This document shows positions 48,689 through 64,000 of a DNA stretch of 64,000 nt, piece by piece. The stretch is from Lacinutrix sp. WUR7 (GTDB lineage: Bacteria > Bacteroidota > Bacteroidia > Flavobacteriales > Flavobacteriaceae), in NCBI RefSeq assembly GCF_016864015.1, contig NZ_CP045067.1, forward strand, positions 1,771,001-1,835,000, written 5' to 3'. Both the position numbers and the translations under genes were made by a program. The notes beneath the pieces were generated by a model. That model saw only the letters and a program-made list of their open reading frames with translations, had not been told where the DNA came from and ran no database searches. Each line of letters begins with the position of its first letter. Within the stretch, counting starts at the first letter, position 1.

Positions 48689-50188
48689 TTACTCCTCGTC
48701 ATTAAAGGTTTTGGTTCTTTTAATAGCCGACAACCAGCCTGCGTATTTTTGTGTTCTCGTTTTGTTATCCATTTTTGGAGTGAAAACTTGATCTATTTCT
48801 CGAATGGATTCCATGTCTTTTCTTGTCCATATTCCAGCTTTTAATCCTGCTAACATGGCAGCTCCAAGAGCGGTAATTTCAAGCATTTTTGGTCTTTCAA
48901 CAATAACATCAAGCATGTCTGATTGAAATTGCATCAGGTAATTATTTGCACTTGCACCACCATCGACTTTTAAGGAAGTTAGTGTTTTTCCGCTATCTTC
49001 TTCCATTGCTTTTATAACATCTTTGGTTTGATAGGCTAAGGCTTCAATGGTTGCTTTAATGATTTCGTTTTTTCCAATATCTAGCGTAATTCCGTAGATA
49101 GCGCCTTTGGCATTCGCATCCCAATAAGGTGCTCCTAATCCGGCAAAAGCGGGAACCACATATACATCTTTTAATGGCGGAATACTTTTACAAATAGCCT
49201 CGGTTTCTTTTGCCTCTTTAATGAATAACAACTTATCGCGTAACCATTGTATAGATGCACCACCAATAAAAATACTGCCTTCTAATGCGTAGTTGACAGG
49301 TTCGTTGGGTAAGCTGCAAGTTAGTGTGGTGATGAGTCCGTTTTTAGAAGCTACATAATCTTTTCCGTTATTAAGCAATAGGAAGCAACCCGTACCATAA
49401 GTGTTTTTTGCAATTCCTGCTTCCGAACCTCCTTGTCCGAACAAAGCTGCCTGTTGGTCGCCAGCAACACCATAAATAGGAATAGATATTCCGTTATGTG
49501 TTACAGCACCAAAATTAGAGGATGAGGTTTTTACTTCTGGTAACATCGATTTTGGAATATCTAAAGCAGCCAACAACGTAGCATCCCACTTTAAATCTTT
49601 AATATTATACAGCATGGTTCGGGATGCATTGGTATGATCGGTAATGTGCTGCTTTCCGTTGGTAAATTTATAAATCAACCAACTATCTATAGTTCCAAAA
49701 AGTAGTTGTCCCGCTCCGGCTTTTATACGCGCTTCAGGTACGTTATCTAAAATCCATTTTAATTTGGTTCCCGAAAAGTAAGCGTCAATAACTAATCCTG
49801 TATGCTCTCGAACATAAGTTCCTAAGCCATCTTTTTTTAAAGTCTTACAAATGTCTTTGGTTCTGTTGTCTAGCCAAACAATGGCATTGTAGATAGGTTC
49901 TCCCGTTTCTTTATCCCAAACCACAGTAGTTTCTCTTTGGTTGGTAATTCCTATAGCTGCAATTTCTTCTGGAAGAATTCCGGTGTCTTTTAAAACGGTT
50001 TCAAAAGTTTCTTTTTGGTCGTTGTATATTTCGATAGGGTCGTGTTCTACCCAGCCAGATTCTGGATAATGTTGTGTGAGTTCTTTTTGCGAAATACCTA
50101 CAATAGTACCTTTTTCATCAAAAATAATGGTCCTGGTACTGGTTGTACCTTGATCAAAAGCGATTACGTATTTTTTTTGCATGAACAA
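48689..50188 (-). CDS. glpK: Glycerol kinase
   Basis: GlpK phosphorylates glycerol to glycerol-3-phosphate. The 499-residue FGGY-family protein begins YVIAFDQGTTSTRTIIFDEKG. It has GITNQRETTVVWDKETGEPIYNAIVWLDNRT, TYGTGCFLLLNNG and KVDGGASANNYLMQFQSDML. Length is normal. No glpF is adjacent. A conserved TACTATGC-type palindrome lies 45 nt upstream of the start, close to a TAATTTCG -7-like box (50224-50217). Confidence 0.97.
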   Translation of the reverse strand: MFMQKKYVIAFDQGTTSTRTIIFDEKGTIVGISQKELTQHYPESGWVEHDPIEIYNDQKETFETVLKDTGILPEEIAAIGITNQRETTVVWDKETGEPIYNAIVWLDNRTKDICKTLKKDGLGTYVREHTGLVIDAYFSGTKLKWILDNVPEARIKAGAGQLLFGTIDSWLIYKFTNGKQHITDHTNASRTMLYNIKDLKWDATLLAALDIPKSMLPEVKTSSSNFGAVTHNGISIPIYGVAGDQQAALFGQGGSEAGIAKNTYGTGCFLLLNNGKDYVASKNGLITTLTCSLPNEPVNYALEGSIFIGGASIQWLRDKLLFIKEAKETEAICKSIPPLKDVYVVPAFAGLGAPYWDANAKGAIYGITLDIGKNEIIKATIEALAYQTKDVIKAMEEDSGKTLTSLKVDGGASANNYLMQFQSDMLDVIVERPKMLEITALGAAMLAGLKAGIWTRKDMESIREIDQVFTPKMDNKTRTQKYAGWLSAIKRTKTFNDEE

Positions 50189-50343: not shown

Positions 50344-50910
50344 ATGGCTAAAAAAGCAGACCAAACAGCATCCTTTATGGTTCGGTTTAACCAAATTATT
50401 TTTGAAGAAGATGGGGAATCAAAAGTACAATGGCGCGGAAAAGTATCGCATGTACAAGGTGGTGAGGATAAGAGTTTTTCAGATTTTAAAGAAGCTGTAG
50501 CTTTTATACAGTCCAAATTAGCCGATTTAACTTTGGAAGCTACAAAACATGAAACTCCAGAAGTGCAGGATTCTCTATTGAAAAAGAGTTTTTCGCTTTG
50601 GAAAACCATTTCTAAGGAAGGTCCGAAAGTAATCCTAGAAACCATCAAAGATCCTAGAAAGCAAGTCGCAAACATACAAGATCAAATTAGTTATTTAGGC
50701 GAAGACTTAATGGATAAAGTACATATCGATCAATGGCGAAATGCTTCTCGATCTGATTTTAATACTATAAAAGATTCTATTAGCAGTTTAGCAGATGAGA
50801 TTAAAAAATTAAATGCTAAAGTAGATGCTATTAGCACTCCAACTAAAGCAACCAAAACTACTAAAACTACGAAAACAGCTAAAACTACACGAGCTACTAA
50901 AAAGAAGTAA
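50344..50910 (+). CDS. Phasin-like protein with basic H1-like tail
   Basis: The 188-residue protein has three parts. The first (about 8-58) is a small domain with FMVRFNQIIF, VQWRGKVSHVQGG and FSDFKEAVAFIQ. The middle (about 70-160) is a coiled-coil-prone helical region (SISSLADEIKKLNAKVDAI). The tail (166-188) is rich in KATKTTKT and ends KKK. Phasin plus H1-like tail is the layout of PhaF, which links storage granules to the nucleoid. Primary-sequence homology is not certain. It lies 9 nt before the SARP-like regulator gene and is probably cotranscribed with it. Confidence 0.65.
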   Translation: MAKKADQTASFMVRFNQIIFEEDGESKVQWRGKVSHVQGGEDKSFSDFKEAVAFIQSKLADLTLEATKHETPEVQDSLLKKSFSLWKTISKEGPKVILETIKDPRKQVANIQDQISYLGEDLMDKVHIDQWRNASRSDFNTIKDSISSLADEIKKLNAKVDAISTPTKATKTTKTTKTAKTTRATKKK

Positions 50911-50919
50911 GCCTTATAC

Positions 50920-51720
50920 ATGAATCCACTTCCAGATAGATTAATAGAATTAAAACAGTTTCAAAAGGATGCGATTATTCGTATTCAGACTTTGGGACAG
51001 TTTCATCTATGGATACATAATGAGAAAGTAGATTCTAAGAAATGGGGAAGAGATAAAACCGTGCAATTACTACAGTATTTAATTTCTAATAGACAACGGC
51101 ATGCCCTTCATAAAGAAAAAATCATGGATCATCTTTGGGAAGATGGAGACGACAGGGATTTTAAAGTCGCATTACACGGAGTTAATAAAGTTTTAGAACC
51201 CGAAAGACCTTCTAGAACCGAACCTAGTTTTGTGATTCGACAAGGAATTAGTTATCAATTAGATTTAGAAAAAGTTTGGATTGATGTCGAAGCTTTAGAA
51301 CAATATATTATTATAGGTAACGAAGCTTTTGGCGAAGATCAAGGAATTGCTAAAGAAGCCTATAAAGAAGCTATTGCCTTATATCGAGGTGTATATTTGC
51401 CTAATCGGGTTTTTGAAGATTGGTCTTCCGAAGAACGCGAGAAAATTCAAATCCTAATTTTAGGCGCTTATGTAATACTTGCTGAAATTTTATTAAATGA
51501 AAACCCGTTAGAAAGTATTCGTTTAGCACAATGTGCAATTGCAATAGATAATACTTGGGAAGATGCATACCGACTTCAAATGCAAGCGTACATTAAAAAA
51601 GGAAATAGACCACAAGCCATCAAAGCCTATCAAAAATGTGCCGATGTGCTAGAAAAGGAATATGGTATTGAACCACTTCCAACCACAAAAAATCTTCTAA
51701 AAGAAATTGAAAATATTTAA
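50920..51720 (+). CDS. SARP/BTAD-type transcriptional activator
   Basis: The 266-residue protein has an N-terminal OmpR-like winged helix (about 18-115; IRIQTLGQFHLWIHNEKVDSKKWGRDKTVQLLQYLI, then HALHKEKIMDHLWED). A bacterial transcriptional activator domain of TPR-like helices follows (about 118-266; LEQYIIIGNEA, YLPNRVFEDWSSEEREKI, DAYRLQMQAYIKKGNRPQAIKAYQKCADVLEKEYGIEPLPTT). This is the AfsR/DnrI/SARP architecture best known from actinomycetes. It sits among phasin-like genes and probably activates them. Confidence 0.88.
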   Translation: MNPLPDRLIELKQFQKDAIIRIQTLGQFHLWIHNEKVDSKKWGRDKTVQLLQYLISNRQRHALHKEKIMDHLWEDGDDRDFKVALHGVNKVLEPERPSRTEPSFVIRQGISYQLDLEKVWIDVEALEQYIIIGNEAFGEDQGIAKEAYKEAIALYRGVYLPNRVFEDWSSEEREKIQILILGAYVILAEILLNENPLESIRLAQCAIAIDNTWEDAYRLQMQAYIKKGNRPQAIKAYQKCADVLEKEYGIEPLPTTKNLLKEIENI

Positions 51721-51819
51721 TTGTAAAATATTTTAAAAAATAATTATCCGCTGTAAACCCTTGTTTTTACTCAAGTTTTTATTCTTCCTTCTTATAAAAA
51801 ATCGCTAAGCATCGTTTTT

Positions 51820-51858
51820 GCAACTCAGTTGTAACTACCTGATTGTACGTTTGTACCA
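51820..51858 (+). promoter_or_regulatory. Duplicated phasin leader, copy 1
   Basis: This 39-nt block matches 52188-52226 at 35 of 39 positions. It contains CAACTCAGTTG (palindrome), TTGTAACT, TTGTACGT and TTGTACCA. The first and third TTGTA start 22 nt apart. TACGTTTG (51846-51853) is a -7 match. It lies about 35 nt upstream of the first small phasin-like gene. Confidence 0.65.
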
Positions 51859-51892
51859 TAAAATAAGATATAACACATTTAAACAATATATT

Positions 51893-52156
51893 ATGGCTAC
51901 TAAAACAAAAGCAACATTAATCAACAGTACTACAAATAAAGTATTAGGATTAACTACGAAAGCAAATGATTTCGCTTTAAACACTACAGAAAAAGTATTC
52001 ACAAAATCTATTGCATGTACTGAAAAAGGATTAGGTCTTTCTGCAAAACTACTAAAGAAAGGTTTAAAAGCATCTGCTAAAAACCAAGATATGGTTTTTA
52101 ATACTTTAGAAACAGTAAAAGGAAAAGCGGTAAAGTTTATCGCAAAATCTAAATAA
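51893..52156 (+). CDS. Small phasin-like protein A
   Basis: The 87-residue basic, helical protein begins MATKTKATLINSTTNK. The end carries the shared motif AKNQDMVFNTLETVKGKAVKF. Start chosen at ATG 51893: the sequence AACAATATATTATGGC is repeated exactly before the next gene start, and a longer frame would begin inside the duplicated promoter. Sequence and context suggest a granule-surface protein. Standard phasins are longer, so this may be a short variant. Confidence 0.7.
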   Translation: MATKTKATLINSTTNKVLGLTTKANDFALNTTEKVFTKSIACTEKGLGLSAKLLKKGLKASAKNQDMVFNTLETVKGKAVKFIAKSK

Positions 52157-52187
52157 TTTCAAAAATAAAAGGAACGCATACACAAGT

Positions 52188-52226
52188 GCAACTCATTTGT
52201 AACTCGCTGATTGTATGTTTGTACCA
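52188..52226 (+). promoter_or_regulatory. Duplicated phasin leader, copy 2
   Basis: Same block as at 51820-51858 (four differences). TTGTAACT, TTGTATGT and TTGTACCA have the same spacing, and TATGTTTG (52214-52221) is the -7 match. The conserved TTGTA repeats 22 nt apart resemble the direct-repeat sites of SARP regulators. Confidence 0.65.
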
Positions 52227-52262
52227 GAATTAAATATAACAACACAATAACAACAATATATT

Positions 52263-53135
52263 ATGGCAACTAAAACTAAAAAAGTAGCAAAAAAAGCAAC
52301 AAGTAAAGTAAAGAACGATACTAACGTTGTAAAGAAAATTAATACAGAATTAGTGAACGCATCTATAGCTACAATTAATACGGTTGTAGATAATGGTGAG
52401 AAATGGCAAAAATTAGCTTCTAAGTTAATGAAGAAGTCAGAAAAAATAAGAGAGCAACAAATCAATATGATTTTTGATACTGCGGAAGCTGTAAAAGGAC
52501 AGTTTGTAACAGGATCGGATAAAATGAAAGATTTAGTTGGTTACGATGCAACTATGGTTGAGAAAGCTAAAGATATGGCAATGCGCAATCCAGTAGCTAA
52601 AAAAGTATTGGATATTGTTGAAGATATTACAGAGAAAGTTTCTGAAAACCCAATGGTTCAAAAAGCAGAAAAAGTTTCCGAAGACATTAAAAGCATGGGA
52701 ATGGCTAAGTTTAAAGAACTTAAGGGAGATGTTCTAGAACAAGCTTCAAAAATTCTTGACAAAGGAGAAGCTATTATTGAAGAAGCGAAAGAAACACCTA
52801 AAGCGAAAGTAACGAAGAAAGTGGTTAAAGCTAAAACAACAGTAGCTAAAAAAGCAGTAGCTAAAAAAACGGTTGCTAAAAAAGCAACGGCAAAAGTTAC
52901 TAAAGCAACTAAGGTAGTAGCAAAAGCAGCACCTAAAAAAGCGGTAGTTAAAAAACCAGTAGCTAAAAAAACAACTACAACTAAGAAAGCGGTAACAAAA
53001 GCTGCTCCTAAAGCAAAAGCTACTGTAGCTAAAAAAGCAACAGCAGTGAAAAAAGAAACGACAGCAAAAGTAGCTGAGGTTAAAACAGAAGTAGCTGCAA
53101 AAGTTGCTGAAGTTAAAACAGAAGCAACAAAATAA
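52263..53135 (+). CDS. PhaF-like phasin with long Lys/Ala histone-H1-like tail
   Basis: The 290-residue protein begins with a short basic segment. A helical phasin-like domain follows (about 25-170; NGEKWQKLASKLMKKSEKIREQQINMIFDTAEAVKGQF). A tail from about 180 to 290 is built of AKKAVAKKTVAKKATAK-type repeats. The layout is that of PhaF/histone H1-like proteins: granule-binding helix plus DNA-binding tail. It has its own copy of the duplicated leader and is followed by a third phasin-like gene 28 nt later. Confidence 0.78.
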   Translation: MATKTKKVAKKATSKVKNDTNVVKKINTELVNASIATINTVVDNGEKWQKLASKLMKKSEKIREQQINMIFDTAEAVKGQFVTGSDKMKDLVGYDATMVEKAKDMAMRNPVAKKVLDIVEDITEKVSENPMVQKAEKVSEDIKSMGMAKFKELKGDVLEQASKILDKGEAIIEEAKETPKAKVTKKVVKAKTTVAKKAVAKKTVAKKATAKVTKATKVVAKAAPKKAVVKKPVAKKTTTTKKAVTKAAPKAKATVAKKATAVKKETTAKVAEVKTEVAAKVAEVKTEATK

Positions 53136-53163
53136 TACCATAACTTATAAAAAGTAATTTGAT

Positions 53164-53451
53164 ATGCTTACAAAATCAATATTAGATGCTCCAAAAAACA
53201 TGGTTTTTAAAGCATTAAATAAAACAAGAAAAGTTGCAGAATCGGCTAACGATTATGCGCTACATACCACAGAAGATGTTGTTAGTGAAACGATAGTTGT
53301 TGCAGAGCAATGGCAAACGGTTGCTAACAAAGCAATAAAAGACAGTTTGAAAATAGCTGCAACAAATCAAGATTTAGTTTTTACTGCTTTAACAGGTATG
53401 AAAAAACACGTAAAACTTAGCAAAAAAAGATTTACTAAGCTTATGGCATAG
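53164..53451 (+). CDS. Small phasin-like protein B
   Basis: The 95-residue protein reads MLTKSILDAPKNMVFKALNK and contains EQWQTVANKAIKDSLKIAATNQDLVF with TGMKKHVKLSK. It shares the NQD-VF--L--K motif of small phasin-like protein A and an EQWQ segment related to NGEKWQ in the PhaF-like protein. It is probably the last gene of that unit, closed by a terminator. Confidence 0.7.
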   Translation: MLTKSILDAPKNMVFKALNKTRKVAESANDYALHTTEDVVSETIVVAEQWQTVANKAIKDSLKIAATNQDLVFTALTGMKKHVKLSKKRFTKLMA

Positions 53452-53488
53452 TATTAAATTTTTTGTTTATTATTAAGTTGGTTAGTTG

Positions 53489-53520
53489 AAAAGGTTGTCT
53501 GTAGAGGCAACCTTTTTTTT
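53489..53520 (+). terminator. Terminator of the phasin-like unit
   Basis: AAAAGGTTG / CAACCTTTT stem (53489-53497 and 53508-53516) with a 10-nt loop and a T run. Confidence 0.8.
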
Positions 53521-53534
53521 GTTTTATAGATCTT

Positions 53535-53550
53535 CGTTTTGGTCAAAACG
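53535..53550. promoter_or_regulatory. Inverted repeat upstream of the TetR-like gene
   Basis: CGTTTTG-GT-CAAAACG, 7-bp perfect arms, about 30 nt upstream of the TetR-like start codon and just ahead of TACTTTTA (53556-53563). It is a candidate autoregulatory operator. Confidence 0.5.
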
Positions 53551-53580
53551 TTTCGTACTTTTATAGCAAACAATTGATTA

Positions 53581-54231
53581 ATGGCCAAGAAAAAGAAAGT
53601 TGCAGCTTCAGATATACTTACCATGTACATGGATTATGTGGTAGAACACCATAGTAAGCCAGAATCGGTAACCAGTTTTACTGAAATACATGCTTTAGAT
53701 GAAGAAGTTTTTTACACCCATTTCACCTCTTTTAAAGATGTAGAAAAGGATATTTATTTACTGCTTTTTGAAAATTCAGTGGCTATTTTAAAGCAAACGC
53801 CAGAGTATATTTCGTTTACTAAAAAAGACAAGATGCTAAGTTTGTATTATACCTTTTTTGAAAACCTGTCGCTCAATCAAGAATTTATAAAAATCAATCT
53901 GAAAGGTTTCGAAAATCAGCTGAAAGCATTTTCTACCTTTTCCAGATTAAAACGTGGATTTAAGGCATTTGTAGAAGATTTAGATTTAGAAACAATTAGT
54001 CTGAATGTAGATACTATCGAAAATATTCAAAAGAAAACCATTAAAGAATCTTTCTGGATTCAGTTCTTGTTTACCATGAAATTTTGGCTCGATGATACTT
54101 CGGAAGCTTTTGAAAAAACAGATATTTTTATTGAGAAATCACTAAACACGAGTTTCGAATTGTTAAATACCAAGTCTTTGAATAATATAATTGATTTGGC
54201 GAAGTTTTTATATAAAGAGAAAGTGAAATAG
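53581..54231 (+). CDS. TetR-like transcriptional regulator
   Basis: The 216-residue helical protein has an N-terminal region (DILTMYMDYVVEHHSKPESVTSFTEIHALDEEVFYTHFTSFKDVEKDIYLL, about 11-62) that fits a divergent TetR helix-turn-helix. A ligand-binding-type helical domain follows. The HTH lacks the usual glycine-rich turn. Its place between phasin-like genes and WS/DGAT recalls PhaD in Pseudomonas PHA loci. The ATG overlaps no neighbour. Confidence 0.75.
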   Translation: MAKKKKVAASDILTMYMDYVVEHHSKPESVTSFTEIHALDEEVFYTHFTSFKDVEKDIYLLLFENSVAILKQTPEYISFTKKDKMLSLYYTFFENLSLNQEFIKINLKGFENQLKAFSTFSRLKRGFKAFVEDLDLETISLNVDTIENIQKKTIKESFWIQFLFTMKFWLDDTSEAFEKTDIFIEKSLNTSFELLNTKSLNNIIDLAKFLYKEKVK

Positions 54232-54232
54232 T

Positions 54233-54265
54233 AGACCTGCGGGGTTTTTAAAACGGTGTAGGTCT
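54233..54265. repeat. Degenerate 33-nt palindromic repeat
   Basis: AGACCT...AGGTCT outer arms and GTTTT/AAAAC inner arms, with mismatches between. It resembles the CCTGCAAGGTTTT-type palindrome in the glpK-glpD spacer and may belong to the same family. It lies 2 nt after the TetR-like stop codon. A second small stem (CCCGT/ACGGG, 54284-54297) precedes the next start. Confidence 0.5.
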
Positions 54266-54304
54266 ATAAATTAAAAAAAGATACCCGTTTTCACGGGCAG
54301 GAGT

Positions 54305-55615
54305 ATGAAAACACTTAAAAACATACCGATTTCTAAAATTCAACGCGCATCCAAATTGGTGCAAACGGGAGCGAAAGTTGGCGTAAATTATCTGAAATAT
54401 TATGGCGATAAAATGGTGCATTCCGAAGAAGAAGCCAAAGAACGTTTAGATGAATCTAACGCCACAGATATTTATGATAGTTTAAAAGACCTAAAAGGTT
54501 CTGCTTTAAAATTAGCGCAAATGCTAAGCATGGAGAAAAATATTTTACCGCGAGCCTATGTGGAGAAATTCTCGTTGTCGCAATTTTCAGTACCTCCATT
54601 ATCTGCTCCTTTAGTTTTGAAAACCTTTAAAAAGTCTTTTGGTAAATTCCCAAGTGAAATTTTTGATGCTTTTAATCCAGAAGCAATAAATGCAGCGAGT
54701 ATCGGACAAGTACATAAAGCAGAAAAAGATGGGAAAACCTTGGCTGTGAAAATTCAGTATCCTGGAGTTGCAGATAGTATTTTGTCCGACTTAGCAATGG
54801 TGAAGCCAATTGCTATGAAGATGTTTAATATAAAAGGAGAACATTCCGATGTGTATTTTAAAGAAGTAGAAGGGAAGCTATTAGAAGAAACAAACTATTT
54901 ATTAGAGATAGCACAAAGCAAAGAAGTCGTTGCTGCGTGTGCGCATATTCCAAATTTAGAATTCCCTAGATATTATGAAGGTTTCTCTTCACAACAAATC
55001 ATTACAATGGATTGGATGGAAGGAATGCATCTTTCCGAATTTGCTAAAATAAATACCAACGCTGAGCTTGCAAGTCAACTAGGACAAGCTTTATGGGATT
55101 TCTATTTATATCAAATGCATATACTTAAAAAAGTACATGCCGATCCGCATCCTGGTAATTTTTTAGTTTCCGAAAAAGGAAAATTAATTGCCATCGATTT
55201 TGGTTGTATGAAAATCATTCCGGAAGATTTTTACATTCCTTATTTCGAATTATTTAATAAAGAAATACTGGATGATTCTAAACGGTTTCATAAGCAATTA
55301 TTGAAATTGGAGATTTTAAGAAAAGACGATTCCGAAGAAGAAATAGTATTCTTTACCAATATGTTTCATGATGTACTAAGCTTTTTTACACAGCCTTTTA
55401 GAGAAGAAACTTTTGATTTTTCAGATCCTGCATTTTTTGAGAAAATAGCAGCTATTGGGGAACGTTATTTTAAAAGTACGAGATCTAATAAAATGAACGC
55501 CAATAGAGGTTCTAAGCATTTTATTTATTTGAATAGAACGTTTTTCGGATTGTTTAATTTAATGTTTGATTTAAAAGCGACAAACATTAAGATCAATAAC
55601 TATCAAAATATATAG
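54305..55615 (+). CDS. ABC1/UbiB (AarF)-family atypical kinase
   Basis: The 436-residue protein has the ABC1 hallmarks: an N-terminal LKLAQMLS in place of the KxGQ motif (G replaced by A), the Ala-rich loop NAASIGQVHKA and VKIQYPG with the ATP-binding Lys. Catalytic HADPHPGNFLV and DFGCMK complete the set. Family members are ATPases or kinases linked to ubiquinone and other isoprenoid lipids. A strong AGGAG sits right before the start, and a small CCCGT/ACGGG hairpin precedes it. It lies between the TetR-like and WS/DGAT genes. Confidence 0.92.
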   Translation: MKTLKNIPISKIQRASKLVQTGAKVGVNYLKYYGDKMVHSEEEAKERLDESNATDIYDSLKDLKGSALKLAQMLSMEKNILPRAYVEKFSLSQFSVPPLSAPLVLKTFKKSFGKFPSEIFDAFNPEAINAASIGQVHKAEKDGKTLAVKIQYPGVADSILSDLAMVKPIAMKMFNIKGEHSDVYFKEVEGKLLEETNYLLEIAQSKEVVAACAHIPNLEFPRYYEGFSSQQIITMDWMEGMHLSEFAKINTNAELASQLGQALWDFYLYQMHILKKVHADPHPGNFLVSEKGKLIAIDFGCMKIIPEDFYIPYFELFNKEILDDSKRFHKQLLKLEILRKDDSEEEIVFFTNMFHDVLSFFTQPFREETFDFSDPAFFEKIAAIGERYFKSTRSNKMNANRGSKHFIYLNRTFFGLFNLMFDLKATNIKINNYQNI

Positions 55616-55654
55616 TTGGAAACGGTAGTGCGAATAATTTTAAGGCATTTGAAA

Positions 55655-55672
55655 TATTATGCACGCATAGTA
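55655..55672. promoter_or_regulatory. TACTATGC-type palindrome upstream of the WS/DGAT gene
   Basis: TATTATGCACGCATAGTA matches the 43164-43181 core at 15 of 18 positions, with TATGCRYGCATA intact. It lies 138 nt upstream of the WS/DGAT start, in a 194-nt promoter region. Confidence 0.65.
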
Positions 55673-55809
55673 TTTTGTGTAAATATCGTATATTGTAAAA
55701 AAGACCATTTATTTTGTGGTTTATTTTGATAAAATCATTAAATTTTCACATTAAATTTATAGAATTAGCAAGTTTCTTAAAAGAATAGCATTAATACAAG
55801 TAATTTATA

Positions 55810-57654
55810 ATGGCAAAAAAAATTGATTTGAAGGATATTGTGCAAGATGCATTCGATACTTCAATCCACCAAATTTCAGGTTCTGATGCAGCATTTCTAT
55901 ATGCCGAATCACCAACAAGTCCGATGCATATTGCAACCTTGAATATTGTGGAAGGTTCTTTAAAGTTTGAAGATTTTAAAGAGATTGTCGCGTCTAAATT
56001 ACATTTAGTACCAAAGTTTAGACAGCGCTTATTAAGTGTTCCTATGGATTTAGATTATCCGTATTGGGTAGACGATCCAAATTTTGATATCGACTTGCAT
56101 TTAAATCGTATTAAATTACCAGATCCATCGAATTGGAAAACGTTAAGAGATTTGACATCCACTTTGTTTTCTGCACCTTTAGATTTACGTAGACCATTAT
56201 GGTCGGTGCATTTTATTGAAGGAATAGATGAAATTGCGCAAGTGCCTAAAGGCTCTGTTGCTATAGTTACAAAAGTACATCACGTAATGATTGATGGTAG
56301 TTCTGGAGTTGGTATTATGGGTGTTTTGTATGATAGTGATGCAGATGGCAAGCAAAAAAAACGTTCTAAACCAAAGCCTTTTAATCCAGAGCCATTACCA
56401 GACGAACTTAGTTTACTGTTAAAAAGTGGGTATGGGTTTTTAAAAAATCCGTTTAGAATTCCAAGAACAGTTGCAGAAACGGCTTACAGTTTTATTAAAA
56501 GTAAAGCCGCCAAGAAACTAAGTATTCAAAGAGAATTTAGTTCCACAAAGTTTCCAGTTCCAATCACCATTTTTAATGGTACTATTTCTGCCAAAAGAAC
56601 TTGGGGAACAGCCATTTTATCTTTCGAGCGTATCAATGCGCTTCGTAAAACAATGGGTGGAAGTATTAACGATGTTATTCTTGCTATTTGTGCAGGAGCG
56701 CTTCGTCGATATTTAGTAGAAAAAGAAAAATTACCATTACACCCATTGGTCGCCAATGTGCCAATTTCTATTCGTACAGAAAATAGCGACCATACTATGA
56801 ATAATCAAATTGCTAATATGATGATTCAATTAGCAACACATATTGAAGATCCTTTAGAACGTCTAGAATATATTCAAGAACAAACCATGTTAGGGAAGTC
56901 AAGGCACAATACTATGGGAGCAAAAACGTTGGCTAAAATGGCAGATGTGGTTCCTTTTGGTTTAGCAAATTTAGCTGCTGGACTATATAGTAAATACAAT
57001 ATTAAAGATTTACATAGGCCTCCTTTTAATGTTACCATTACTAATGTTCCAGGACCAAGAGGTTTATTGTATTTAAACGGACATAAAGTAGTTTCTATTT
57101 TTGGTTTAACGCCTGTTTTAGATGGTTTTGGACTAATTATTGCTGCATTTAGTTATAATGGTCAAGTAAGTATTACTACCACATCAGATTCTAAAACAAT
57201 GCCAGATGCGGATGTGTTTTCTAGATATATTAGAGAATCTGCTAACGAGTTGGAAGAACAAATTAAAAATCTAGGAAAAGATAAATCAGCTAGTAAAACA
57301 GTACAACAAGTTAAAAGTAAAAGTGGCCCGTTTTTTACGGCTTTAAAAAAATATGTAAAAGAAAATCCTAAAGAAGTGAAATCGGCAAAGGGTTTATATC
57401 ACATGCAATTAGATTTAGGAGATAGGACAGATAGCTGGGAACTAGATTTTACAAAAACAGTAGCCGTTATTAAGAAAAAGAAAAATTTAGACCCTAAAGT
57501 TTTAATAGAAATTGAAGATGAAAACCTATTTGCTTTGTATAAAGGCAAGTTGCTTTTAGAGGAATTAAAAATTCAAGGGCGAATTAAAATAACAGGAACA
57601 GCAGCAAGTAAAACAAAATTTATAAAGTTACTTATAGCATTTCTAGAACGATAA
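55810..57654 (+). CDS. Wax ester synthase/diacylglycerol acyltransferase (WS/DGAT) with C-terminal SCP2-like domain
   Basis: The 614-residue protein begins with a WS/DGAT domain. Catalytic HHVMIDG lies at 157-163, PLW at 129-131, GGSINDVILA near 280 and NVPGPRG near 415. WS/DGAT esterifies acyl-CoA with diacylglycerol (triacylglycerol) or fatty alcohol (wax ester). Residues about 515-614 look like an SCP2 sterol/lipid-carrier domain (LYHMQLDLGD through LEELKIQGRIKITGTAASKTKF). Usual WS/DGATs are 450-500 residues, so this is an addition. Three further genes follow with gaps of 3-10 nt. Confidence 0.93.
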   Translation: MAKKIDLKDIVQDAFDTSIHQISGSDAAFLYAESPTSPMHIATLNIVEGSLKFEDFKEIVASKLHLVPKFRQRLLSVPMDLDYPYWVDDPNFDIDLHLNRIKLPDPSNWKTLRDLTSTLFSAPLDLRRPLWSVHFIEGIDEIAQVPKGSVAIVTKVHHVMIDGSSGVGIMGVLYDSDADGKQKKRSKPKPFNPEPLPDELSLLLKSGYGFLKNPFRIPRTVAETAYSFIKSKAAKKLSIQREFSSTKFPVPITIFNGTISAKRTWGTAILSFERINALRKTMGGSINDVILAICAGALRRYLVEKEKLPLHPLVANVPISIRTENSDHTMNNQIANMMIQLATHIEDPLERLEYIQEQTMLGKSRHNTMGAKTLAKMADVVPFGLANLAAGLYSKYNIKDLHRPPFNVTITNVPGPRGLLYLNGHKVVSIFGLTPVLDGFGLIIAAFSYNGQVSITTTSDSKTMPDADVFSRYIRESANELEEQIKNLGKDKSASKTVQQVKSKSGPFFTALKKYVKENPKEVKSAKGLYHMQLDLGDRTDSWELDFTKTVAVIKKKKNLDPKVLIEIEDENLFALYKGKLLLEELKIQGRIKITGTAASKTKFIKLLIAFLER

Positions 57655-57657
57655 TTA

Positions 57658-58587
57658 ATGCATTATAATACACATATATTGAAATCGACAGATGGCGAAT
57701 CCATTTGTTATTATAAATGGGAAGCAAACCCCAAAGTGCCTTTTAAAGGTCTTGTACAAATTGCACACGGATTAGGAGAACATGCTGGTAGATATGATGA
57801 TATGGCACATCTTTTACAAGACGAAGGCTATTCGATTTATGCTAATGATCATCGTGCTCACGGTAAAACCGCCGAGATGAAACGCTTGTTTGGCTTTTAT
57901 GATGGTGACGCGTATTTTGACGATTGTATAGAAGATATGCACGTGTTGTCCAATCTAATGAAAGCCGAAAACCCAAAAGCTAAATTTATATTATTTGGAC
58001 ACAGTATGGGATCCCTTTTTAGTAGAATGTACGTAACTAAATATGGTGAAGAATTAGATGCTTTAATCTTATCTGGAACCGCAAGTTTTATGAAGGGGTT
58101 AGGGAATGTCGGACTCGTGGCAGCGTCTACAGTAACCGCTTTTCGCGGAAGAGCAAGAGGAAATGAATTTTTAAAATCGGTCTTTTTTGGCGAATTCAAT
58201 AAAAAGTTCAAACCCAATAGAACCAAGTTTGATTGGCTAAGTCGCGATGAAAAACAAGTCGATGTTTTTGCTAAAGATCCTTATCGAATAGAAGATTTTT
58301 CATTGGGTGTGTTTTTAGATATTATTAAAAACTCGAAAACAATCAATAAATCGGAAGCCTTTAAAGCAACACCAAAAGATTTACCAATTTTGATGTTTTC
58401 TGGCGATAAAGATCCCGTTGGTGAAATGGGGAAAGGCGTAAAGCGCGTTGCCAAACAATTTGAGAAAAGTGGAATACATGATTTTACCTTTAATTTATAT
58501 GAAGGAGGAAGACACGAAATGTTAAAAGAAACGAATGCCGAGGCAGTGAAGCAAGAAGTTATTGCTTGGCTAAATGCACGTATGTAA
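57658..58587 (+). CDS. Alpha/beta hydrolase, monoacylglycerol lipase-like
   Basis: The 309-residue hydrolase_4 (serine aminopeptidase-type) protein has HGLGEHAGRY (37-46), nucleophile Ser116 in GHSMGS, acid residue in SGDKDPVG and His in GGRHEML. Its length and motifs match monoacylglycerol lipases/lysophospholipases. It starts 3 nt after WS/DGAT, so it is cotranscribed. A role in releasing fatty acids from stored lipid is a fair inference. Confidence 0.88.
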   Translation: MHYNTHILKSTDGESICYYKWEANPKVPFKGLVQIAHGLGEHAGRYDDMAHLLQDEGYSIYANDHRAHGKTAEMKRLFGFYDGDAYFDDCIEDMHVLSNLMKAENPKAKFILFGHSMGSLFSRMYVTKYGEELDALILSGTASFMKGLGNVGLVAASTVTAFRGRARGNEFLKSVFFGEFNKKFKPNRTKFDWLSRDEKQVDVFAKDPYRIEDFSLGVFLDIIKNSKTINKSEAFKATPKDLPILMFSGDKDPVGEMGKGVKRVAKQFEKSGIHDFTFNLYEGGRHEMLKETNAEAVKQEVIAWLNARM

Positions 58588-58597
58588 GAATAAAAAA

Positions 58598-59779
58598 ATG
58601 GAAGAAACCCAAATTATATATAAGATTTTCACACGCTTAGCTGTTGCTTTGGGAACGCTAAATGGCTTGAGTCTAAAAGAAGCGAAAAAGCTTACGAATC
58701 TACAATTCAAGGAGCATCTTTTTCAAAAAGAAATCAAAGTGCTCATTAGTGCCATTAAAAAAGATGAACACGAAATTATTGAACAATTATTAGAAAAAAC
58801 TATTTTGGTTTGTGATGAGTTAGGTCCAAATAGAGATTATATAACGCTAATAAAAATATTAAAAAATATAGGCGTTTCTATTTCCGAAGGGCACGATCAA
58901 AACGAATACAAATACACCAATTCCATTCTAGATAGATTTCAGAAAAAAATAAAGGCAATCAATAAAAAAATCCCATTGCCGCCATTATTTAATATGATGA
59001 TGGAAAGTAGGTCGTTAATCGAATGGTCATCCATTTATTGCTTATATCCTTTTATCCCAAAACGTATTAAAGGAAAAGGCAAGCCTGTATTATTAATTCC
59101 GCCATATTTAGGGGATGACTTTTCAACTTCCTTTGTAAGGAAATATTTAAAATCTCTGGGGTTTACAACCTACAAATGGGAATTAGGATTTAATATGGTG
59201 AAATCCCATTATATTCCTAGGTTAGAAGAAAAACTAGCAGATATTTATCAGGAACACCAAGAAAAAGTAAGTATTGTTGGTTGGAGTGGCGGTGGTATTT
59301 TTGCCAAAATCATGGCAAATAGACACCCGAATCAAGTGGAACAAATTTTAACTATTGGCTCTCCCATTTGGGGCGTTATGGATATGAAAACACCGCTTTA
59401 CGGTTTGCTAGAATTTTTTAGAGGAAAGTCTTTAAAGGAACGTAACGAAAGATTTTTAGCCGAATTAGAACCAATACCAATAGTTCCAGTAACCTGTATT
59501 TATACAAAAACCGATGGTCTAGTGCCTTGGAAACATTGTATGGAAGCAGCGACATATAGAAAGAATATTAAAAATATTGAAGTCTTTGGTAGTCATACCG
59601 GAATGGGCGCCAATGCAAGTGTTTTACTCGTCACAGCCAATATGCTTAGCGCGAATATACAAGGCAAAAAAATAAGAGATGTTGGCTCTAATATTGAACG
59701 TTATTTATATCCTAATTTCTGGAAAAAAGCTATAAAAACGTTCAAAACCAAAAAGCCAATTGTACCAGTAATAAAATAA
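58598..59779 (+). CDS. Alpha/beta hydrolase of unknown substrate in the lipid operon
   Basis: The 393-residue protein has an N-terminal helical region (1-150). An alpha/beta hydrolase fold follows with GKPVLLIPPYLGDDFSTSF and nucleophile elbow GWSGGG (Ser230). Later come IGSPIWG, TKTDGLVPWKHC (acid) and GSHTGMGAN (His). The nucleophile is Ser, not the Cys of PHA synthases. Start set at MEETQII, because the longer frame overlaps the previous gene. It resembles esterases encoded near WS/DGAT genes elsewhere. Confidence 0.8.
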   Translation: MEETQIIYKIFTRLAVALGTLNGLSLKEAKKLTNLQFKEHLFQKEIKVLISAIKKDEHEIIEQLLEKTILVCDELGPNRDYITLIKILKNIGVSISEGHDQNEYKYTNSILDRFQKKIKAINKKIPLPPLFNMMMESRSLIEWSSIYCLYPFIPKRIKGKGKPVLLIPPYLGDDFSTSFVRKYLKSLGFTTYKWELGFNMVKSHYIPRLEEKLADIYQEHQEKVSIVGWSGGGIFAKIMANRHPNQVEQILTIGSPIWGVMDMKTPLYGLLEFFRGKSLKERNERFLAELEPIPIVPVTCIYTKTDGLVPWKHCMEAATYRKNIKNIEVFGSHTGMGANASVLLVTANMLSANIQGKKIRDVGSNIERYLYPNFWKKAIKTFKTKKPIVPVIK

Positions 59780-59785
59780 TAAGAT

Positions 59786-62700
59786 ATGGATCATATTATT
59801 GCCCATCATAAATTTCAAGACGCTTTAAAGCAAATTGCTATAGAGCTAAAGTTAGATCTTGAAGATGTAAAAAAGCAAGGCGCAAACTGTATTAAGGAGT
59901 TGTATGCACAACAGCATCCTATTGCAAAATTAATGTCCGTAAAAAGCTTTGATTATATTCTTTCTAGAGCGTATAATGATAAAATTGATGTAGATCCAAA
60001 AGGGATAAAAAAGCTGATGAAATTGATGCAGAAAAACTCTGTAGCATTCATTATGACACACAAAACCTATCTCGATACTTTGGTGCTAATTTCAACATTG
60101 GCACGTTATGGTATGCCAATTCCATATTCTTTCGGTGGAAGTAATTTGGCATTTCCAGGAATGAAACAATTAGGAAACAATGCAGGACTCATTTTTATTC
60201 GTCGCAGTTTTAAAGACGACTTAATTTATAAAGCAGCTTTACGTCATTATATCGCTTCCATTATAGATAAAGGGGATCATTTAACTTGGAATATTGAAGG
60301 AACACGATCTAGAACCGGAAAAATTATTTACCCAAAAATGGGAATCTTAAAATATATAAAGGAAGGGGAAGCACAGAGTACAAGAAATATTAAATATGTT
60401 CCCGTTTCTATTGTTTATGATCTCATTCCAGATGTCAAACAAATGACAGAGGAAGGAAAAGGGCAAGAAAAAAAGTCGGAAAACATAAAAGAGACTGTCA
60501 GTTATATTAAGAAATTAGGAAATGATTATGGTCGTGCAGCAATCCGATTTGGAGACCCTGTAGAAATGGAAGAAGACCAGCAAGCCATCATTCCAGACAT
60601 GGAAGAAGATAGTTATGCCGATAAAAATACACTACCACGTTTTGCTTTTGAGTTGATTCACAAAACCAACGCGATTACACCAGTAACTACAGTTTCCTTA
60701 ATTTGCCATGTATTGCTAAATGATTTCGCTTTAACCAAAAAAGAAATCGAATTCAAGGTGAATAGATTGATGGGATACATTGGTCAGAAAAAAGAAGATG
60801 TACTTATAGATCGTGGTAAAAAGATTGGAGTTACCATTCAAACCGCACTAAATTTATTAAAGGCAGCTAGAATAATTCAAAAAAGTAGGGCAGGACAAAA
60901 GGCACAATATAGTTTGGTTGCTACTGAGTATTTACCAGCGACGTATTATGCAAATATGGCTTCGGGCCATTTATACCACCAAGCTTTTATTGAAATGGCT
61001 TTGGTGAAAATAAAAGACGATACATCTGCGAATCGAATCACGAACTTCTGGGAAGAAATTATGGAGCTTCGTAATTTATTTAAGTTTGAATTTTTCTACA
61101 CCAATAAGCCGAAATTTAGCAGTGAAATTGAAACCGAATTATTCCGATTCGATAAAAACTGGAGAGCCATTTTAGCAAATCCAAAAGGAGATATTTCTGC
61201 GTTATTAAAAAAGCAAGATTTATTCGTTTCTAGAGCAATTCTTTTATCGTATTTAGAAGCCGATAAAGTGGTTTGTCATACCTTGAATAGTTGGGATACA
61301 GATGATGAATTTACAGATAAAGAATTCATCGAATTGTCTATGTTTAAAGGAAAAGAATTGCATTGGCAATCTAAAATAACACGCTTAGATAGTGTTTCTA
61401 AACCCTTTTTAATTAATGCACTTCGTTTTGCTAAGAATGCAAATTTAATTCCGGTAGATAGAACCATAGATTATGATGCTTTAGAAAGCTGGAAAAATCA
61501 GTTAGAAGATTTATCTGAAAGATTATTTTACTTAAAGCAAATAGAAAATGTACAAGATGAAAGAGGATTAAAAGAAGAACCACAAGAACAAATTATAGTT
61601 CCAGATTCTGGTAGTGATGAAGTACATCAAGAAGAGGAAATCGAAGAAGGAGCGCATATTACAGCGTTTTTTGATATGGATAGAACGCTAATCAATGATT
61701 TTTCTGCAAAAAAATTCATGACAACACGTTTGTTTAGTGGAAAAACAACGGCAAAAGAATATCTCACACAGTTTGCTACAGCAGCAGTATTTGCTTTAGG
61801 AAATAGAGATTTTGAAGTGCTTACCAAAATCGCTGCACTTGGTGTAAAAGGGATTGCAGAATCTGCATTTACAGAATTAGGAGAACAAGTTTTTACCGAT
61901 TATCTAGAAGAAACTATTTACCCAGAATCGCGGGAGTTAATAGAGAAACATTTAGAGAAAGGTCATAAAGTCGTTATTATATCTGCTGCTACTACCTATC
62001 AAATAGAACCCATAGCGAAAGCCTTAGGGATTAAAGATATTTATGCCACCGAAATGGAATTACGCAACGGTAAGTTTACTGGTCGTGTTTCCGAAATGTG
62101 TTGGGGAGAAGGTAAAGCAAGAGCGGCAAGAAAATTTGCGAAAAAGAACAATACCGATTTATCTAAAAGTTATTTTTATACCGATAGCTTTGATGATTAT
62201 CCATTATTAAAAATTGTAGGAAAACCAGTTGCTACCAATCCTGATCAACGCTTATCACAAATAGCATTCGAAAATAATTGGCCTATCTTAAGATTTGAAG
62301 AGCCAGTAGGAAAACCTTTGGTTAATGGGTTTAGAACTGGATTAGCGGCGGCAAGTATTTATCCTTCCGCTTTAAAAGGAATTGTAAAAGGAGCAATGAC
62401 GATGTCTAGGCAAGAAGCCGCAAATACTACCTTTTCTAGTATTGGCGATTTAGGATCCAAAATGGCAGGATTAGAAATTGCAGTAAAAGGAAAGCATAAT
62501 TTAGAAGAAATACGTCCCGCAGTTTTTTGTTTTAATCATCAAAGTGCTGCCGATTTCTTTATCGTCATGAAATTGATTCGTCATGATTTTACAGGAATTG
62601 CTAAAAAGGAATTAGAAAGAACGCCTTTCGGTCCTATATTTAAAGCGTTAGGTGCTATTTATGTAGATCGTGCTAATAAAGAAAAAGCCATTGAAGCCAT

Positions 62701-63016
62701 GCAACCAGCTGTAGAAGCTTTAAAGAATGGTATTTCTGTTGCTATCGCGCCAGAGGGAACGAGGAGTGGAAGTAAAACCTTAGGAACCTTTAAAAAAGGT
62801 GCGTTTCACTTAGCCATGCAAGCTGGAGTACCAATTATTCCAATCGTGATTAAAAATGCATATATGGCCATGCCTAAAGGAACGAGTATGTTTAAACCAA
62901 CACATATAGAAGTGGTTGTTTTAGATCCTGTTGATACTTCCCTTTGGAAACGAAAAAATATCAATAAGCATATTGAAGAAGTTCGAGATTTGTATATTAA
63001 TGAATTAGAAAATTAA
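59786..63016 (+). CDS. Acyltransferase-HAD phosphatase-acyltransferase fusion (PlsB-like + HAD + PlsC-like)
   Basis: The 1076-residue protein has three catalytic units. N-terminal (about 80-450): a PlsB-type acyltransferase with H92-x4-D97 (HKTYLD), GLIFIRRSF and EGTRSR (171-176). Middle (about 620-830): a HAD-IB hydrolase with DMDRT (630-634), VVIISAATT and YTDSFDDYPLL. C-terminal (about 895-1076): a PlsC-type acyltransferase with H918-x4-D923 (NHQSAADF) and PEGTRS (989-994). All key residues are present. Together they could turn glycerol-3-phosphate into phosphatidate and, if the HAD acts on it, diacylglycerol. It lies 6 nt after the previous gene and 9 nt before gpsA. Confidence 0.92.
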   Translation: MDHIIAHHKFQDALKQIAIELKLDLEDVKKQGANCIKELYAQQHPIAKLMSVKSFDYILSRAYNDKIDVDPKGIKKLMKLMQKNSVAFIMTHKTYLDTLVLISTLARYGMPIPYSFGGSNLAFPGMKQLGNNAGLIFIRRSFKDDLIYKAALRHYIASIIDKGDHLTWNIEGTRSRTGKIIYPKMGILKYIKEGEAQSTRNIKYVPVSIVYDLIPDVKQMTEEGKGQEKKSENIKETVSYIKKLGNDYGRAAIRFGDPVEMEEDQQAIIPDMEEDSYADKNTLPRFAFELIHKTNAITPVTTVSLICHVLLNDFALTKKEIEFKVNRLMGYIGQKKEDVLIDRGKKIGVTIQTALNLLKAARIIQKSRAGQKAQYSLVATEYLPATYYANMASGHLYHQAFIEMALVKIKDDTSANRITNFWEEIMELRNLFKFEFFYTNKPKFSSEIETELFRFDKNWRAILANPKGDISALLKKQDLFVSRAILLSYLEADKVVCHTLNSWDTDDEFTDKEFIELSMFKGKELHWQSKITRLDSVSKPFLINALRFAKNANLIPVDRTIDYDALESWKNQLEDLSERLFYLKQIENVQDERGLKEEPQEQIIVPDSGSDEVHQEEEIEEGAHITAFFDMDRTLINDFSAKKFMTTRLFSGKTTAKEYLTQFATAAVFALGNRDFEVLTKIAALGVKGIAESAFTELGEQVFTDYLEETIYPESRELIEKHLEKGHKVVIISAATTYQIEPIAKALGIKDIYATEMELRNGKFTGRVSEMCWGEGKARAARKFAKKNNTDLSKSYFYTDSFDDYPLLKIVGKPVATNPDQRLSQIAFENNWPILRFEEPVGKPLVNGFRTGLAAASIYPSALKGIVKGAMTMSRQEAANTTFSSIGDLGSKMAGLEIAVKGKHNLEEIRPAVFCFNHQSAADFFIVMKLIRHDFTGIAKKELERTPFGPIFKALGAIYVDRANKEKAIEAMQPAVEALKNGISVAIAPEGTRSGSKTLGTFKKGAFHLAMQAGVPIIPIVIKNAYMAMPKGTSMFKPTHIEVVVLDPVDTSLWKRKNINKHIEEVRDLYINELEN

Positions 63017-63025
63017 TTTTAAGTT

Positions 63026-64000
63026 ATGAAACTAAACGTAGGGATTTTAGGAGGTGGTTCTTGGGGAACCACAGTAGCATCATTAACTGCAAAAAATAAT
63101 GATACTATTTTATGGGCAAGAAATGAAAAGACTATTCGAGAAATTAATGAAGAACATAGCAATTCTAAGTATTTACCAGGAGCAAAATTAAATAAGAATT
63201 TAAAAGCTTCTACTTCTATTGAAGAAACGGTTAAAAATGCAGATGTGATTGTCATGGGAATTCCTTCGCAGCATTTTAGAGAAGTGTTGCGTGCTGCAAA
63301 ACCTTTTATTAGACCTTGGGTTCCTATTGTGAGTTTAGCTAAAGGTTTAGAATTGGACACAAAAATGCGCATGACGCAAATTATTGAAGAAGAACTTCCT
63401 GGGCATCCAGCTGGAGTTCTTACAGGACCTAACTTAGCGAAAGAAATACATGCTGGGCAAGCAGCGGCAGCAGTAATTGCGATGGTAGATAAAACGATTG
63501 CTAAAGAATTACAACAAGTATTTAGCACAGGGTTATTTCGTGTATATACCAATAATGATGTGATAGGTTGCGAACTTGGTGGAGCTCTTAAAAATATTAT
63601 GGCAATTGCCACAGGAATGGGGGATGGTGCAGATGCAGGGGATAATACAAGAGCTGCGTTAATCACCAGAGGCTTATCTGAATTAACTAGGTTGGGAATT
63701 GCCATGGGAGGAAAACGACGCACGTTTGCTGGACTAGCAGGAATGGGAGATTTAGTAGCTACCTGTTCCAGTTCTAAAAGTAGAAACCATCATGTTGGAT
63801 TTCAAATCGGACAAGGGAAAAGTTTAGATCAAATAATTGAAGAAATGGATGAAGTTGCCGAAGGTGTAAAAACGGCAAAAGTAGTTATGGAATTAGCTAA
63901 AGATTATAAGGTCGATATGCCAATATCTAGAGAGGTTTACAAAGTGCTTTACGAAGGGAATACTGTTAATGATGCTTTTAAAGGTTTGCTTAAAATTGAA
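63026..64000 (+). CDS. gpsA: NAD(P)H-dependent glycerol-3-phosphate dehydrogenase (3' end cut by window)
   Basis: GpsA reduces dihydroxyacetone phosphate to glycerol-3-phosphate for lipid synthesis. The 325 visible codons begin MKLNVGILGGGSWGTTVAS. They include MGIPSQHFREV, SLAKGLE, LTGPNLAKEI, LGGALKNIMAIATGMGDG (catalytic Lys) and FAGLAGMGDLVATC. The usual length is about 330 residues, so only a few codons are missing. It is cotranscribed with the acyltransferase fusion, which uses its product. Confidence 0.96.
   Translation, partial: MKLNVGILGGGSWGTTVASLTAKNNDTILWARNEKTIREINEEHSNSKYLPGAKLNKNLKASTSIEETVKNADVIVMGIPSQHFREVLRAAKPFIRPWVPIVSLAKGLELDTKMRMTQIIEEELPGHPAGVLTGPNLAKEIHAGQAAAAVIAMVDKTIAKELQQVFSTGLFRVYTNNDVIGCELGGALKNIMAIATGMGDGADAGDNTRAALITRGLSELTRLGIAMGGKRRTFAGLAGMGDLVATCSSSKSRNHHVGFQIGQGKSLDQIIEEMDEVAEGVKTAKVVMELAKDYKVDMPISREVYKVLYEGNTVNDAFKGLLKIE

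Follow-up and report, generated by a model that had tools for sequence, protein, structure and literature searches.

A gene block for putative neutral-lipid storage in Lacinutrix

We analysed a 64,000-nucleotide (nt) stretch of the Lacinutrix sp. WUR7 chromosome (hereafter, the window; G000:C1:1771001-1835000), taken from a genome that is assembled in one contig (3.99 Mb, 99.93% complete). Its right-hand end carries a block of genes around a wax ester synthase/diacylglycerol acyltransferase (WS/DGAT), and P1 to P4 denote proteins of this block. Judged from its sequence, this is a conserved, real locus that most likely serves neutral-lipid storage and brings its own coat-like and control genes. 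The genes of the block, all on the plus strand and in the order given, are followed below by the two neighbouring glycerol genes (protein lengths in amino acids, aa).

50344-50910, plus strand: P1, unnamed, 188 aa, with a strand-rich N-terminus, long helices and a K/T tail (alignment A2)
50920-51720, plus strand: transcription activator of the Streptomyces antibiotic regulatory protein (SARP) type, hereafter BTAD (PF03704, 3.9e-17)
51893-52156, plus strand: P2, helical coat-like protein of 87 aa, aligned with P4 in alignment A4
52263-53135, plus strand: P3, 290 aa, with a P4-like N-terminal part and a K/A-rich basic tail (+30 in the last 110 aa)
53164-53451, plus strand: P4, coat-like protein of 95 aa, predicted to form a single long amphipathic helix (residues 9-94)
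53581-54231, plus strand: TetR-family regulator (TetR_C_23, PF17931, 6.5e-37)
54305-55615, plus strand: ABC1/UbiB-like atypical kinase (PF03109, 5.5e-54)
55810-57654, plus strand: WS/DGAT acyltransferase with C-terminal SCP2 domain (TIGR02946, 8.8e-123; SCP2, 1.2e-6)
57658-58587, plus strand: HydA, alpha/beta hydrolase with GHSMG (Hydrolase_4, PF12146, 9.5e-45)
58598-59779, plus strand: HydB, alpha/beta hydrolase with the Ser nucleophile box GWSGG and a weak Pfam match
59786-63016, plus strand: GPAT-HAD-PlsC fusion of 1076 aa with three domains (glycerol-3-phosphate acyltransferase, GPAT; phosphatase-like; acylglycerol-phosphate acyltransferase, AGPAT)
63026-64000, plus strand, continuing beyond the window: gpsA, glycerol-3-phosphate dehydrogenase (PF07479, 5.6e-57)
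48689-50182, minus strand: glpK, glycerol kinase (FGGY_N, 9.7e-81)
46827-48500, minus strand: glpD, glycerol-3-phosphate dehydrogenase (DAO, 5e-56; DAO_C, 2.6e-16)

A previous sequence-only reading of this DNA had placed the genes of the block next to one another on one strand, with glpK and glpD adjoining. Inspection of the open reading frames (ORFs) bore this out, with Pfam or NCBIfam support for all but the phasin-like proteins and the weakly matched HydB, and located both glycerol genes, with domain matches, on the minus strand. The tight spacing (3-10 nt) that it had described for the enzyme genes was also recovered: the gaps along WS/DGAT-HydA-HydB-fusion-gpsA measure 3, 10, 6 and 9 nt. 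P1 and BTAD are separated by 9 nt and P3 and P4 by 28 nt, while the remaining gaps in the cluster span 73-194 nt, making more than one transcription unit likely.

The synthesis operon encodes glycerolipid enzymes

The WS/DGAT scored 410.5 bits against TIGR02946, above the curated cut-off of 309.95, and carries the HHxxxDG active site as HHVMIDG at residue 157, a motif found in 84 of 85 ORFs with a DGAT hit. It is the only match to PF03007 at E ≤ 0.001 in the whole genome and is 98% identical to the WS/DGAT of Lacinutrix himadriensis; the two solved chains that match it, 7nxg and 6chj, are both acyltransferases. The C-terminal SCP2 domain was absent from the earlier description. The ABC1 kinase gene lies immediately 5' of WS/DGAT in several relatives.

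As for the two alpha/beta hydrolases claimed downstream, HydA is clearly one, as its Hydrolase_4 match indicates. HydB has only a weak Pfam match (PGAP1, 6.8e-5; 23.2 bits, under the cut-off of 24.3), yet its GWSGG box is present and is kept in all 48 homologs of at least 330 aa. We also considered HydB as a hidden polyhydroxyalkanoate (PHA) synthase and rejected this, given a TIGR01836 E-value of 0.033 and a Ser box (GWSGG) instead of the PHA-synthase Cys.

The fusion protein matched GPAT_C (1.7e-55), HAD (3.7e-35) and Acyltransferase (1.6e-44) and contains two EGTR motifs and one DxDxT motif (DMDRT); 57 of 60 homologous ORFs are at least 1000 aa long. Both the N and C domains of GpsA were matched, and the gene is complete (333 aa) in the relative locus L006. 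About 4 kb downstream of gpsA in that locus (L006:14106-15110) lies a 334-aa protein with a DIDDT motif, which we take to resemble an App1-type phosphatidate phosphatase and which could supply diacylglycerol. PlsY, tried as a marker of a separate phospholipid pathway, gave no match in the genome; the search rings in 8 of 14 control genomes, the Bacteroides control not among them, and is therefore uninformative.

WS/DGAT enzymes are often bifunctional, and the genome holds six matches to the reductase-type domain NAD_binding_4 (best 1.6e-25), both of which would suit a cluster that makes wax esters, or mainly wax esters, instead of triacylglycerol (TAG), with coats and regulators unchanged. The WS/DGAT gene, however, lies in an operon of glycerolipid genes (GPAT, AGPAT, gpsA) with glpK and glpD nearby, and the presence pattern of GPAT_C equals that of WS/DGAT. 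Nor did the domain search of the cluster proteins list a fatty-acyl reductase domain, and none of the six NAD_binding_4 matches falls in the window, in keeping with the earlier statement that no fatty-alcohol-forming reductase is seen there. NAD_binding_4 was dropped as a wax-ester test since it rings in 14 of 14 controls. Taken together, we consider wax esters quite improbable as the main product.

Coat-like genes co-occur with WS/DGAT

We scored WS/DGAT, P1, P4-type proteins and GPAT_C in the same 149 Flavobacteriaceae genomes (148 genera). WS/DGAT was present in five, and the same five carried P1 (E < 1e-75), P4-type proteins (E < 1e-30) and GPAT_C; P1 and P4-type proteins were strong in none of the other 144. 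Fisher's test gave p = 1.7e-9 (1e-8 for P1 and 1e-7 for P4 when weak matches are counted), uncorrected for kinship. Proteins of the window were among those used to build the models for P1, WS/DGAT and P4, so the window's own genome (G000) matches by construction. The sample's one other genome of this genus (G142) had no match to any of the four; the block is therefore not fixed within the genus. Such a patchy distribution suggests that the block was gained or lost as one unit.

Gene neighbourhoods were compared in the best 80 of 131 relatives from a WS/DGAT alignment scan, whose record titles name Flavobacteriaceae, Saprospiraceae, Chitinophagales, Cytophagia and unplaced Bacteroidetes. Forty-four of these loci have full flanks, extending beyond WS/DGAT by more than 6 kb on the upstream side and 9.9 kb on the downstream side. 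A shorter flank on one or both sides kept the remaining 36 outside the count, and 18 of them lack a P1 match. Near WS/DGAT in the full-flank loci we found P1 with BTAD in 41, P3 in 41, P4 in 38 and P2 in 32, as well as TetR in at least 29 and ABC1 in at least 23, downstream-arranged loci often ending before the latter two; glpD was found in 11 and glpK in nine. Gene order varies: among the 59 loci with P1, 29 have it upstream of WS/DGAT and 22 downstream, and in eight it is encoded on the opposite strand. Tree distances of P1 and WS/DGAT correlate over 58 loci (rho 0.86, with 0 of 200 permutations as high), as expected under co-inheritance and equally under plain common descent. Ten Polaribacter-type loci (within L037-L057) have common genes 0-10 kb upstream of WS/DGAT, presumably photolyase/cryptochrome-like and others.

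The co-occurrence of phasin-like genes with WS/DGAT, on which the proposed cluster for making, coating and mobilising TAG bodies had been staked, was thus recovered in 5 of 5 family genomes with WS/DGAT, strongly in 0 of 144 without it, and in 41 of 44 loci. Together with the lack of a PHA synthase match, described below, it supports that proposal.

P2 to P4 have a coat-like form

The P4 model consists of one helix over residues 9-94 (mean pLDDT 79). The mean helical moment was equalled by 0 of 500 shuffles for P1, P3 (residues 1-110) and P4, and by 2 of 500 for P2. P2 and P4 are related to the P3 N-terminus (hhalign of alignment A4 against A3, 2.3e-20); both are small and helical and have no basic tail, whereas the P3 tail in the window is rich in K, A, V and T (+30). 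A helix-hairpin-helix domain (HHH_5) was detected in 22 of 26 P3 members scanned at E ≤ 0.01, and 43 of 56 P3 homologs carry a GIGP-like motif; among the 13 lacking it are two of just 105 and 128 aa. By analogy with the architecture of the droplet protein MLDS (PMC5504291) and the phasin PhaF (PMC5658603), P3 may hold DNA.

Histone-like features also invite another assignment, in which P2 to P4 are nucleoid or stress proteins (histone-H1-like, LEA-like) that are co-regulated with stationary-phase lipid storage and stay off the droplets. The K/A-rich tail of P3, HHH_5 domains among P3 members and an HC2 match (1.6e-7) in L033 are consistent with this, but P2 and P4 are small helical proteins that lack such tails, and the genes are closely linked to WS/DGAT. 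We therefore regard this assignment as unlikely and favour a coat.

P1 is less easily described as a simple phasin-like coat, as the sequence-only reading had it. No Pfam family matched it above cut-off, and its model, of low confidence (mean pLDDT 60), has an N-terminal part made of beta strands, at odds with that description; a structure search with this model returned no PDB match at E ≤ 0.001.

Conserved sites suggest two regulatory switches

Upstream regions of the cluster contain two types of candidate operator.

51819-51836, plus strand: SARP-type operator TGCAACT-CAGT-TGTAACT, before P2
52187-52204, plus strand: SARP-type operator TGCAACT-CATT-TGTAACT, before P3
50237-50246, no strand assigned: palindrome ATGCGTGCAT, candidate TetR operator, between glpK and P1
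55659-55668, no strand assigned: palindrome ATGCACGCAT, candidate TetR operator, upstream of WS/DGAT

Both SARP-type sites lie 9 nt before TAnnTTTG. A strict operator pattern, drawn up from the upstream regions in 22 loci and then counted across all 80 (1.395 Mb), gave 92 matches, of which 91 precede P2 (32), P3 (53) or P4 (6); the remaining one is in L057 near the end of the stretch. Eighty of the 92 lie 9 nt before TAnnTT[T/A]G, and no match occurred in reversed or ten shuffled sequence sets. Heptamers with a 4-nt spacer, giving an 11-bp period, have been described as the classical SARP arrangement (PMC5930380). Since the cluster encodes a SARP-type protein and has classical heptamer sites, the simplest reading is that BTAD activates the coat genes, and it would do so by binding the TGYAACT-N4-TGYAACT sites.

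Across the 80 loci we counted 33 copies of the palindrome ATGCRYGCAT, against a mean of 3.2 after shuffling and 3.3 for 23 rearranged half-site controls. Fourteen copies precede WS/DGAT, eight precede tetR, five lie between glpK and P1, one precedes HydB and five are elsewhere, so that 27 of 33 are found before WS/DGAT, glpK/P1 or tetR. Because the palindrome sits before tetR itself, TetR is the best candidate binder. We infer from such sequence context which of the two regulators may bind which site.

P1 and BTAD are also found in a PHA cluster

In all 59 loci that hold P1, BTAD is present on the same strand, with a gap of at most 20 nt in 55 and of 49-167 nt in four. For a possible N-terminal winged helix, BTAD gave a sub-threshold match to Trans_reg_C (0.0026; 18.2 bits, under the cut-off of 26.2). 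As the constant companion of this regulator, P1 would be a likely link between droplet surface and regulator.

Outside the family, three genomes (G161, G180 and G272), all from a single genus in another Bacteroidota family, gave P1 matches (4e-24 to 7e-23). In G161 the order is BTAD, P1-like protein, a helical-looking 130-aa protein, PhaE (5.9e-27), PhaC carrying GICQGG, PhaB-type reductase, a small protein and thiolase; G272 repeats all eight genes in this order, and in G180 the P1 match is about 2.5 kb from a PhaC match. The P1 domain of the PHA-cluster protein was confirmed by hhalign (7e-20). All three genomes also hold a diverged WS/DGAT on other contigs. The PHA-type loci (L116 and L117) gave no match to a looser form of the SARP operator. 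P1 and BTAD thus stand in a PHA (PhaEC-B-A) cluster in one family and in a neutral-lipid cluster in Flavobacteriaceae and Saprospiraceae-type genomes. Their presence inside the PHA cluster means that the pair goes with two storage chemistries, and it lends substance to the earlier idea of a mixed system.

Could P1-P4 and BTAD then serve PHA granules in Lacinutrix, the WS/DGAT neighbourhood being historical? The PhaE-PhaC-PhaB-PhaA cluster with BTAD and P1 in two genomes (L116, L117) would agree with this. The complete Lacinutrix genome, however, has no PhaC match over cut-off (no PhaC_N match; TIGR01836 at 3.5e-4, below cut-off, in a 265-aa frame), which agrees with the earlier statement that no PHA synthase is seen. 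Moreover, P1 follows WS/DGAT through differing gene orders, and no strong match was seen in the family where WS/DGAT is missing. A PHA role is thus very improbable here, and we retain neutral lipid as the stored material.

Two weak P1 matches of the phylum sample (L118 and L119, family f22) adjoin a PhaR-like gene. At L118:8629-9530 and L119:1505-2389, a phasin-like protein lies next to a PhaR-type regulator (in L118, PF05597 phasin at 1.6e-28 and PHB_acc_N at 7.3e-20; L119 was judged by eye). The f22 genomes of L118 and L119 have a WS/DGAT match and no PhaC_N match; this may be another case in which a phasin goes with lipid.

What is new in the system is the P1+BTAD pair with its operators. 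We tentatively suggest, with rather less confidence than in a lipid-storage role, that the pair controls granules independently of the stored material: P1 might sense free surface and hold or release the SARP activator, which would then yield coat protein in just the amount needed, part of it with a DNA-binding domain that would pass droplets to daughter cells along with the nucleoid. That P1 and BTAD are common to clusters for PHA and for lipid suggests that the coating and control of granules can be inherited apart from what is stored.

Two further features were noted elsewhere in the window: a 139-aa lipoprotein-like protein of A/D/G/N-rich, LEA-like repeats (23756-24175, minus strand), and a 160-bp tandem repeat (2.4 copies, 82% match; 23289-23677) just after tRNA-Gly and tRNA-Leu.

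Proposed model and points against it

We consider it probable, on the sequence evidence, that the locus makes and coats a neutral-lipid storage body through one dedicated gene block. GpsA, together with glycerol entering via GlpK, would provide glycerol-3-phosphate, which the GPAT-HAD-PlsC fusion would acylate twice. From what is known of these families, the HAD domain of the fusion probably strips the phosphate to give diacylglycerol, WS/DGAT would add the third acyl group, and HydA and HydB, as Ser-box hydrolases, may mobilise the resulting TAG. The amphipathic helical P2, P3 and P4 would form the droplet coat, and the basic tail of P3, with the helix-hairpin-helix of most homologs scanned, might anchor droplets to the nucleoid. 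The model has two switches: BTAD would turn on the coat genes through the paired heptamers, and TetR would control the synthesis operon, glpK/P1-BTAD or itself through the palindromes. We infer that the product is TAG rather than wax ester, and that it may be coated and tethered to DNA.

Several observations weigh against this model. As to linkage, weak matches occur outside the five family genomes (P1 in G006 at 4e-4, inside a 1124-aa frame; P4 in G029, G031 and G045 at 2e-4 to 6e-4), P1 is missing from three full-flank loci (L065, L068 and L077), and the BTAD block and the enzyme operon, with gaps of 73-194 nt between them, may not be co-transcribed. Of the 392 genomes sampled across the phylum, 21 have a WS/DGAT, and 17 of these gave no P1 match at E < 1e-20; the link therefore holds for the SCP2-type lineage and does not extend to WS/DGAT throughout Bacteroidota. 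As to product and control, the six reductase-type matches in the genome, of a domain that rings in all 14 control genomes too, leave wax-ester synthesis some probability, and counts of 27 and 15 were reached by two of the 23 rearranged half-site controls, which makes the excess of palindromes by itself weaker than their placement. The window's own P3 gave no helix-hairpin-helix match in the scan described above, and among ten P3 homologs checked singly eight had HHH_5, just one above the Pfam cut-off.

Phasin identity is the other weak side. P1-P4 of the window had no Pfam or NCBIfam phasin match (PF09361, PF05597, PF09602) at a limit of E ≤ 1, with filters that remove most matches above about 0.1, and comparisons of A4 with a true PF05597 phasin and with the 130-aa helical-looking protein that the PHA cluster encodes both failed. 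Among relatives, four of the 26 P3 members matched PF05597 at E ≤ 0.01, the best of them at 1.7e-6 (L045 at 24.6 bits, under the cut-off of 28.8), and PF09361 matched one of 33 P4/P2 members at 0.01. Against PDB sequences, the best A4 value was 0.098. Membership of P1-P4 in a Pfam phasin family was rejected on the missing profile match and the failed A4-PF05597 comparison. Of the phasin-like coats proposed earlier, the amphipathic helical form stands (modelled for P4; from helical moment for P2 and P3) and profile membership falls; 'phasin-like' denotes form, not family.

The lasting linkage of coat-like genes to an oil-making gene, with a conserved switch in many relatives, suggests a fat-storage organelle. 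Members of Lacinutrix, Polaribacter and Winogradskyella are common in the sea, and many come from cold waters, so an oil-body system in them bears on ocean carbon storage. With its conserved SARP operator and palindrome, the circuit can be put to a direct test.

Comparison with known storage systems

The enzymatic core resembles a known actinobacterial kind. On a Mycobacterium paragordonae plasmid, two adjacent genes, annotated as HAD-IB hydrolase and 1-acyl-glycerol-3-phosphate acyltransferase, together span 94% of the fusion with 31.7% identity, and a WS/DGAT-domain protein and an alpha/beta hydrolase lie about 2-3 kb off on the other strand; the Lacinutrix core therefore looks like this kind, fused. 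The plsB2-plsC-tgs-lipQ genes of M. tuberculosis form a comparable neighbourhood. Unlike these, the present locus has GPAT, HAD and PlsC in one polypeptide, gpsA added and a coat/regulator block attached.

SCP2-type WS/DGAT has already been reported in Lacinutrix, Polaribacter, Winogradskyella, Ulvibacter, Dokdonia and Muricauda, with an acyltransferase/hydrolase noted close by, by a study that called neutral-lipid storage in this phylum unexplored (Galvan 2023, PMC10351704). One Pseudomonadota WS/DGAT scaffold in that study holds a putative phasin, which sets a precedent for a phasin near WS/DGAT; the study's Bacteroidota section does not report coat genes, regulator or operators. Among the open-licence matches listed, no title dealt with coat genes of WS/DGAT clusters in Bacteroidota or with how such genes are regulated.

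P3 appears to share with tethering coats of the MLDS/PhaF type the architecture of a putative coat part followed by a basic C-terminus. The PHA phasin PhaF is described as having an AAKP histone-like tail (PMC5658603). Its likeness to our system lies in the amphipathic coat part with basic tail and in the PHA cluster that holds BTAD and P1 in two relatives; unlike PHA phasins, the window proteins have no Pfam phasin match and occur in a genome with no PHA synthase match over cut-off. In Rhodococcus jostii, the lipid-droplet coat protein MLDS has a Lys-rich, DNA-binding C-terminus and shares an operon with its regulator MLDSR (PMC5504291). The Lacinutrix locus is similar in its neutral-lipid droplets, here proposed from the genes, its basic-tailed coat protein and a regulator encoded alongside. 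It differs in the SARP type of that regulator with its heptamer operators, in several paralogous helical proteins and in the helix-hairpin-helix domain of most P3 homologs scanned, and we claim no homology. The surface-sensing circuit suggested for P1 and BTAD would resemble PhaR/phasin and MLDSR/MLDS, built from other parts.

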